Source: Bacteroidia bacterium (GTDB taxonomy: Bacteria > Bacteroidota > Bacteroidia > B-17B0 > Aurantibacillaceae). Taken from it: a DNA stretch of 64,000 nt. Below, piece by piece: positions 40,255 through 42,030 of the stretch. The translations under genes and the position numbers were made by a program. The notes under the pieces were generated by a model, which ran no database searches, was not told where the DNA came from, and saw nothing but the letters and a program-made list of their open reading frames with translations. The number at the start of each line of letters is the position of its first letter. Within the stretch, counting starts at the first letter, position 1. The stretch is from positions 45,810 to 109,809 of the forward strand of contig JAIOZA010000006.1 in NCBI GenBank assembly GCA_021740825.1, read 5' to 3'.

Positions 40255-40308
40255 GTTTATTTAATTTTTATATAACAAAAAAAACATTCTTTAAAAGAAC
40301 GGGCTTCG

Positions 40309-40372
40309 TAGTGAGGAAGAGATTTGAACTCCCGTCCGCCAGCTGGCGGATATGAATGCTATGCTCAACCGA
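40309..40372 (-). pseudogene. Degenerate partial copy of the tRNA-Met gene
   Basis: tagtgagga[a]gagatttgaactcccg matches the intact tRNA at 41840 with one mismatch; the variable/anticodon region is replaced by a palindrome and the 5' half is scrambled (tatgaatgctatgctcaacc). Confidence 0.8.
40335..40350. repeat. 16-bp perfect palindrome TCCGCCAGCTGGCGGA
   Basis: Self reverse-complementary and GC-rich against an AT-rich background; a near-identical copy lies at 51269-51284. Confidence 0.85.
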
Positions 40373-40457
40373 TAAAATTCCAAATAAATTCTCTGCCTTT
40401 AGCACTTTTTAATTGCTAGTTAAATCGCTATTTAGTATAATTTCAGTAGAAGATAAA

Positions 40458-41648
40458 TTATTTTTTAAAGTCAACCTTGAAAAATTTCGAATATGAACTC
40501 TCAAATGAATTCTTACTATTATTGAACGAATTATTTATAATATCATATGAATACAAAACGATGTATTCATAGTTCCTTTGAAGGAATTGTATTTCCGTTT
40601 TATCATCTAAATTATATTTATTCGCATAAGAAAACCTTAAGTTTCCTAATGTTATAAAACCGTCATGAGTTTGTGGATATTTTAAAGTAACAAAAGTGTA
40701 TGGCGTCGTTTTGTTTTTTTTGAAAGCTTGATATTTCGGCCATAGCGTGTCTTTTTGAACAAGATTAATCGGTGCAAATAGAACTGTTGACGTTGTCATT
40801 TTTTTATGATTGTGTTTAAATTTAGACATAATTTCAGGCCAACGTTTATTTGCAATTTTAATGCTTCTTCCTTCTAAAGTTGTATGGAATGAAATGATTT
40901 TTTTAAATGATTTAGTTGAAGTAGTATCATATTTAATAAAATCCTGAGCACCCATGCTATGCCCCACAGCAAATATGTTATTAGAGTCTACGTTAAAGCT
41001 TTTTTTTGTTTGGTTTATAATAAATTTAATATCGGTAGCAAAATCAAACCTATCGTCACTTGAGCCGATTAAGCCTTCGTAAAAATCTGCAGGCAAGTTA
41101 TAGTTAGAAGAAACTACTAAATATCCTTTGCTAGCCATAAATTCACAAAAAACATTATTATCATTGGGGGTGCTTTGTGCTCCATGGTGGTATATTATAC
41201 AAGGTAATTTACCATTAATAATTGCTATGTCTTTTTTTGCATTAACTGTTGTTGATAATACATCATTATAAAGTTTTTTTGCTATTGTGTCAAATTGCAC
41301 ATTAGTAAATGTTTTAATATTTCTACAAATTGCGTCACTTATTAAAATCCTATTATATCTACAAATTAATGAATCATATAAGTTTTTGTAATTGGCTATT
41401 TTGTCAAAATCCCAATAATTTCTATACTTTAAATAATTTGATTCTGACTGGTCATGTGAAGGATACCAAATACATACATAAAATGGTTTATTTTCCTTTA
41501 AATCATAGAAAGAAAACTTTTCATCATTTTTAATGAAAATAGTGTCTTTATATCCGACCGCAAATTTACCTGGTTGCAATGCTCCCCATTGAGGAAATTC
41601 TTGTGAAAATAGGTTACTATAAATTATTAATAGAAATACGGTCCTCAT
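40458..41648 (-). CDS. Secreted alpha/beta-hydrolase (PAF-acetylhydrolase/dienelactone hydrolase-like)
   Basis: Signal peptide; LPCIIYHHGAQSTPNDNNVFCEFMASKGYLVVSSNYN; nucleophile elbow VGHSMGAQDF. Confidence 0.8.
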   Translation of the reverse strand: MRTVFLLIIYSNLFSQEFPQWGALQPGKFAVGYKDTIFIKNDEKFSFYDLKENKPFYVCIWYPSHDQSESNYLKYRNYWDFDKIANYKNLYDSLICRYNRILISDAICRNIKTFTNVQFDTIAKKLYNDVLSTTVNAKKDIAIINGKLPCIIYHHGAQSTPNDNNVFCEFMASKGYLVVSSNYNLPADFYEGLIGSSDDRFDFATDIKFIINQTKKSFNVDSNNIFAVGHSMGAQDFIKYDTTSTKSFKKIISFHTTLEGRSIKIANKRWPEIMSKFKHNHKKMTTSTVLFAPINLVQKDTLWPKYQAFKKNKTTPYTFVTLKYPQTHDGFITLGNLRFSYANKYNLDDKTEIQFLQRNYEYIVLYSYDIINNSFNNSKNSFESSYSKFFKVDFKK

Positions 41649-41804
41649 GTCTAATTATTTTAGATTGTTTCCATTTTTTTTACGTCAAAAACTATAATAA
41701 TGTTTTAAATATAAAAATATTAACGTAATAATTGTCAAATATTAGCTAACATAAATCTTTTGAAATTTCTCAGAATATAAAGCGTAAACAATATACATAT
41801 TTAC

Positions 41805-41835
41805 CAAAAAAAGCCCATTCTTTAACAGAACGGGC
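41805..41835 (-). terminator. Terminator of the tRNA-Met/tRNA-Arg transcription unit
   Basis: Minus strand gcccgttct-gttaa-agaatgggc followed by TTTTTTT. Confidence 0.8.
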
Positions 41836-41839
41836 TTCG

Positions 41840-41913
41840 TAGTGAGGAGGAGATTTGAACTCCCGACCTTCGGGTTATGAATCCGATGCTCTAACCAACT
41901 GAGCTACCTCACC
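41840..41913 (-). tRNA. tRNA-Met (CAT)
   Basis: GGTGAGGTAGCTCAGTTGGTTAGAGCATCGGATTCATAACCCGAAGGTCGGGAGTTCAAATCTCCTCCTCACTA folds as a cloverleaf, anticodon CAT. Confidence 0.95.
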
Positions 41914-41956
41914 ATTTTTTAAAACAAAACCCTCTGAATACAAAGGGTTTTATCTG

Positions 41957-42030
41957 TGATCGTGTAGGGATTCGAACCCCAAACCTTCTCATCCGTAGTG
42001 AGATGCTCTATCCAGTTGAGCTACACAACC
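41957..42030 (-). tRNA. tRNA-Arg (ACG)
   Basis: GGTTGTGTAGCTCAACTGGATAGAGCATCTCACTACGGATGAGAAGGTTTGGGGTTCGAATCCCTACACGATCA folds as a cloverleaf, anticodon ACG. Confidence 0.94.

Follow-up and report, generated by a model that had tools for sequence, protein, structure and literature searches.

A second, partial copy of a tRNA gene is the probable scar of a tiny nuclease gene, selfish in appearance, located directly behind tRNA genes in many Bacteroidota

SegB, a phage homing endonuclease of the GIY-YIG family, cleaves within tRNA genes, is found together with tRNAs of many isotypes and makes tandem tRNA-segB arrays through homologous recombination (PMC13096335). It is the nearest known, and the nearest tested, case for the module described here. 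As with SegB of phages T4 and T6, a GIY-YIG nuclease lies beside tRNA genes of many isotypes and tandem tRNA-nuclease units occur (PMC13096335, PMC2988022). Unlike the phage-encoded gene, the module is chromosomal, its product is about 80 aa long, each locus has one cognate tRNA with the nuclease gene mostly just behind it, and the module is flanked by a partial copy of the tRNA carrying a hairpin. The nuclease also resembles the small UPF0213/YhbQ-like GIY-YIG proteins in length and in having a single domain, and its nearest solved structures by sequence (1ywl and 1zg2) are of this kind. However, linkage to tRNA genes, which the module nuclease has, was not found for these proteins in the literature searched. 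The 2006 survey of the GIY-YIG superfamily made no link to a tRNA module, and the full-text literature, subscription papers aside, held no description of a chromosomal module of tRNA, GIY-YIG gene and tRNA copy. Neither the nuclease domain nor the notion of GIY-YIG enzymes at tRNA genes is new. The wider family appears undescribed in bacterial chromosomes, and what looks new is the chromosomal module, in which the tRNA copy is local and contains a hairpin.

We analysed a 64,000-nt stretch of a Bacteroidia genome (the window), for which the original prediction had described a near-exact direct repeat of the 3′ part and terminator of a tRNA-Met gene, about 1.53 kb apart. The repeat is present as described: positions 40277-40337 and 41808-41868 share 61 nt at 90% identity with a spacing of 1531. 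The intact gene, an elongator-type tRNA-Met (CAT) on the minus strand (41839-41913; ARAGORN; Rfam tRNA, 70.3 bits), is the target tRNA of the module. It is followed by a terminator-like hairpin with a T run (41808-41838, minus strand), which forms the outer part of the left repeat, and preceded by a tRNA-Arg gene (ACG; 41956-42030, minus strand; ARAGORN), a neighbour conserved in the genus that marks the locus and lies outside the element. The outer part of the right repeat is a decayed duplicate of the terminator (40277-40307, minus strand). Next to it, sequence and repeat identify a partial tRNA-Met copy (about 40308-40376, minus strand) that neither ARAGORN nor Rfam recognised as a tRNA. 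Apart from itself, the copy has a single strong match within its own genome, the tRNA-Met gene (E = 5.5e-18), so the repeat is far beyond chance. The copy had been taken for a 3′ half; this half is indeed present, but the copy continues further in the 5′ direction through an anticodon-like CATA into a D-loop-like stretch. A perfect 16-nt palindrome, TCCGCCAGCTGGCGGA (40335-40350, no strand assigned), stands where the variable loop and the 3′ strand of the anticodon stem would be. Its core 14-mer has a chance value of 0.03 at two mismatches.

The only ORF of at least 80 aa between the repeats encodes a 396-aa alpha/beta-hydrolase-like protein (40458-41648, minus strand) with weak Pfam matches to BD-FAE and PAF-AH. 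It had been reported as the lone gene of the segment, but two short relics of a GIY-YIG gene had escaped notice. The N-terminal relic (41742-41798, minus strand) begins with ATG, encodes MYIVYALYSEKFQKIYVS, the start motif of intact genes, and then runs into a stop; by blastn the region from 41914 to 41743 is 82% identical to the module of sister genome G005. The C-terminal relic (40365-40415, minus strand) encodes QLKSAKGREFIWNFIG and ends at a stop inside the tRNA copy; the region from 40414 to 40301/40292 is 88% identical by blastn to the modules of G005 and G019. The first 18 GIY-YIG codons (from 41798) and the last 16 (from 40415) are thus kept on the two sides of the hydrolase gene, which indicates that an older GIY-YIG module lost its middle to the hydrolase region. 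About 45 GIY-YIG codons gave way to the hydrolase ORF and its flanks. The hydrolase is a later replacement, an unrelated enzyme gene that broke the GIY-YIG gene, and the window instance is a dead copy of the module.

Comparison within the genus places the hydrolase in context. A tRNA-Met copy recurs at the tRNA-Met / tRNA-Arg / dapD locus in G003, G005, G008, G017 and G019 without a hydrolase gene, where the tRNA and dapD parts lie on separate contigs in G003 and G017 and the contig of G019 breaks off at the tRNA. In G009 the copy is present in decayed form, and the contig of G015 ends inside the module. In these sisters a GIY-YIG gene of about 80 codons fills the gap between tRNA-Met and copy, and its stop codon falls inside the copy. 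In nine other congeners tRNA-Met is clean, and the sequence behind it is unrelated. The proposed comparison with relatives therefore gave a divided answer: a single clean tRNA-Met exists in part of the genus, but the copy is common to the rest, where the hydrolase is missing. On the dapD tree, presence and absence of the module are interleaved, in a pattern compatible with gain as well as loss. Well-supported cases are G015, which carries the module beside its sister G001 without it, and G008, which carries it beside G002 and G010 without it. Two features of a homing element are accordingly found here: empty alleles in relatives, and a GIY-YIG gene adjoining the tRNA locus. The window, G009 and the frameshifted gene of G019 show that modules also die.

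These observations bear on whether the segment was left behind by a tRNA island with an integrase, or is a cassette that lacks one, with the hydrolase as cargo. As in integrase islands at tRNA 3′ ends (attL/attR), the 3′ part of the tRNA is directly repeated and a functional tRNA is retained. Unlike such islands, the module has one nuclease ORF of about 240 bp and no integrase, and its repeat extends as far as the anticodon and contains a hairpin. Between the window repeats we found no tyrosine or serine integrase, intact or relic, only the hydrolase ORF and the GIY-YIG relics, in agreement with the absence of an integrase noted earlier. The hydrolase had no strong match in 19 congeners, and its nearest relatives (28-31%), in two other genera, had no tRNA nearby. 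Hydrolase cargo was rejected on these grounds, together with the sisters that have the repeat and a GIY-YIG gene but no hydrolase, and we regard the island or cassette as very improbable. What survives of the idea of tRNA-targeted integration is that a tRNA-targeted element, not a chance repeat, left this footprint, though not one of the integrase attL/attR type.

The sister GIY-YIG gene matches Pfam PF01541 (E = 1.9e-17). Residues Y5, Y16, R26, H30 and E63 are invariant across 33 members and are presumably the positions expected for GIY-YIG catalysis. The family thus has the catalytic domain and conserved active-site residues of a homing endonuclease, of which the window itself holds relics only. 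Where measurable, dN/dS was 0.05-0.28; this purifying selection indicates that the protein is used. The nuclease tree, built on 79 columns, has poor resolution. Members linked to one tRNA isotype group together in it (19 changes, compared with 30 or more when shuffled), and at least seven switches between fMet and eMet targets occur. Of 290 class-level genomes, 175 had an A3-type GIY-YIG match (E <= 1e-8); this number is an upper bound, as the matches may include other GIY-YIG proteins. Carriage by phages or plasmids was rejected: no relative was confirmed among viral contigs, and distant matches occurred only in Rhizobium phages, with one phage group 38-39% similar, and in one plasmid. As a separate observation, tRNA-Asn-linked members at L171, L173 and L216, from assemblies titled Cloacimonadota and LCP-89, sit within the Met-type nuclease clade, which suggests transfer across phyla with a change of target or, alternatively, binning errors.

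The linkage to tRNA genes was examined in two sets of loci. The first set of 80 loci came from a scan of genome contigs with three sister GIY-YIG proteins, a query that biases towards tRNA-Met; nearly all belong to Bacteroidota, and a few are titled Cloacimonadota, LCP-89, Gracilimonas or Rhodothermia. The second set comprised 60 more distant loci from a class-wide search. A same-strand tRNA ended at most 250 bp upstream of the GIY-YIG gene in 54 of 70 usable loci of the first set and 40 of 59 of the second. No opposite-strand tRNA lay within 250 bp upstream in either set, and no tRNA ended 500-1000 bp upstream. The gap between tRNA and GIY-YIG gene is mostly 30-70 bp, that is, just beyond the tRNA terminator. 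In the second set the linked tRNAs represent fourteen anticodon types (Met, Val, Asn, Ala, Asp, three Arg, Gln, Lys, Pro, Thr, Ser and Leu). In the orientation of the tRNA, an intact module consists of a complete tRNA, a terminator, a GIY-YIG ORF of about 80-90 aa, a tRNA copy with hairpin that reaches from the anticodon arm or D loop to the 3′ end, and a second terminator. Units of GIY-YIG gene, copy and terminator also form tandem arrays: ten units of 457 bp in G134, eight of about 365 bp in G175 and three of 369 bp in G273. About a quarter to a third of the loci had no detectable upstream tRNA; some of these are truncated and some have a downstream tRNA. Seven loci (L255, L264, L285, L290, L293, L295 and L301) have a complete same-strand tRNA directly downstream of the GIY-YIG gene and not upstream, possibly another outcome of insertion or cases in which ARAGORN missed the upstream tRNA.

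Such regularity weighs on the proposal that the 3′ end of the tRNA was simply duplicated as a segment, with no functional meaning. Unequal crossing-over can duplicate short stretches, and tandem arrays do occur, but this process would leave unexplained why the repeats enclose a nuclease gene, and do so for a dozen or more tRNA types. The same-strand spacing over many loci likewise contradicts it, and a simple duplication, offered earlier as one reading of the locus, is most unlikely.

The tRNA copy is equally widespread. Of the first-set loci, 59 have an upstream tRNA, and in 52 of these the sequence that follows the GIY-YIG stop is more like that tRNA than shuffled sequence is. In 53 of 54 cases no other, non-identical tRNA of its isotype fits the 3′ end of the copy as well as the local tRNA does, and the terminator was duplicated along with the tRNA part in 32 of 57; the copy is therefore derived from, or homogenised with, its own target tRNA. 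A hairpin of at least 6 bp replaces the anticodon-arm region in 59 of 76 copies, compared with 3.7 expected from shuffles and 6 in native tRNAs. It disrupts the copy, whereas the adjacent complete tRNA stays undisrupted. In Met copies the hairpin is TCCGCC..GGCGGA, 16 nt in length, fixed directly behind the anticodon. Covariation is seen in the stem, which is 98.8% paired (17 double-changed cells versus 4.8 in shuffles, 0 of 500 shuffles; the cells tally sequences rather than events). Met copies tend to have their left edge 4-15 nt 5′ of the anticodon, and the orphan elements L159, L214 and L249 start abruptly at the anticodon, junctions that point to a break near the anticodon. A second palindrome in the T loop was rejected as a rule, the T loop being intact in 45 of 65 copies.

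The conserved hairpin suggests a role beyond homing. It could belong to a conserved host or RNA-level unit, in which the GIY-YIG protein acts on the tRNA or on its own transcript and the hairpin copy serves as a decoy, 3′-UTR regulator or antitoxin-like RNA. The covariation, the fixed hairpin position in Met copies, the strong purifying selection on the nuclease and the placement of the copy in the presumed 3′ UTR of its gene fit such a unit. Patchiness within the genus with relics, tandem arrays and switches of the target tRNA do not. Moreover, PADLOC matched no anti-phage defence model, and the fold energy of the copy is not exceptional (z = -1.4 to -1.6), for which reason a stable special fold was also rejected. 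Taken together, we consider an RNA-level unit rather unlikely.

The window feature is probably what remains, in degenerate form, of a GIY-YIG element of homing type that resides in the chromosome and is directed at tRNA genes, with cleavage and mobility inferred from sequence comparison. A free-standing endonuclease would cut its cognate tRNA gene at the DNA level, close to the anticodon, and repair against an occupied allele would copy the nuclease gene in, leaving the 3′ part of the tRNA duplicated. The displaced copy would then become marked by the hairpin, and arrays may arise through repeated cutting and repair between direct repeats. In the window lineage, about 1.3 kb with the hydrolase gene would have replaced the middle of the nuclease gene and killed it, after which the copy decayed. 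Group I introns with a homing endonuclease share with the module the tRNA target, and GIY-YIG enzymes occur in such introns; unlike there, the tRNA of the module is complete and uninterrupted, and in the window and 15 loci Rfam detected only tRNA, neither an intron of group I or II nor any further known RNA. In homing, the site is normally destroyed in the occupied allele. Against homing, therefore, the complete tRNA beside the nuclease keeps an undisrupted sequence, which leaves self-protection unexplained. The loci that lack a detectable upstream tRNA, the pattern in the genus that fits gain as well as loss, and the conserved hairpin also count against it. If the homing reading is true, the module would be among the smallest self-promoting elements known, placed directly behind essential tRNA genes phylum-wide. 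It would account for partial tRNA copies and for many genes annotated as 'GIY-YIG nuclease family', and would extend the phage SegB-tRNA story to chromosomes. It would also raise the questions of what keeps the host tRNA from being cut, by what route the nuclease switches to another target tRNA and what role the covarying hairpin has.

The palindrome also occurs outside the module. The core palindrome CCGCCAGCTGGCGG is found at 14 places in the window's own genome (L001-L014), in intergenic DNA, in terminator loops and near contig ends, often within a larger REP-like family (TTGGGCGTGTCC...GGTCAGGCTTTCACTTCAATCTTTTA...). The exact core thus has 14 copies against 0 for a reversed control. A partnership like that of REP and RAYT, with the GIY-YIG protein recognising and mobilising the palindrome, would explain these scattered copies. 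The short palindrome beside a nuclease gene and its dispersal in the genome resemble REP/RAYT, and most tRNA copies carry the palindrome. Close GIY-YIG genes were also commoner in palindrome-rich genomes (15/28 versus 38/261, p = 8.6e-6), although these counts ignore phylogeny and are partly circular, as module-internal palindromes enter both sides. Unlike in REP/RAYT, the partner is a GIY-YIG protein and not a RAYT tyrosine (Y1) transposase, and the palindrome is embedded in a tRNA copy. The GTAG/CGTC end tags of REPs (PMC3733652) were not seen on the palindromes listed here, and the array units leave no room for another ORF such as RAYT. Moreover, the palindrome-rich genomes G203 and G140 have little or no close GIY-YIG, and the window's own genome has no intact module. 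Such a partnership is improbable as the explanation of the locus. A wider and much less probable version of the homing reading is that a chromosome-resident family of mobile elements of about 0.35 kb across Bacteroidota may parasitise many tRNA isotypes by a lone GIY-YIG nuclease, with nuclease and covarying palindrome cutting and marking, and also seeding the short palindromic repeats of these genomes.

Several further fragments were observed in the genus. The window's own genome holds a second GIY-YIG fragment (L136; C25:33709-33822) that has an in-frame stop and lies at least about 1.5 kb from any tRNA. In G005 (L115, 2772-3053) and G008 (L117, 2543-2720), partial tRNA-Met copies, two to three in tandem, precede the intact tRNA-Met on its 5′ side; they consist of the tRNA 5′ half, a TCCGCTAGCTAGCGGA-type hairpin and part of the T arm, with no GIY-YIG gene between them. 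Downstream of tRNA-Met in G009 (L128, about 1195-1270) lie tandem copies of the T arm and acceptor with a different palindrome, TCACGCTACAGCGTGA, and G003 has a related palindrome, TCACGCTATAGCTTGA, at the matching position.
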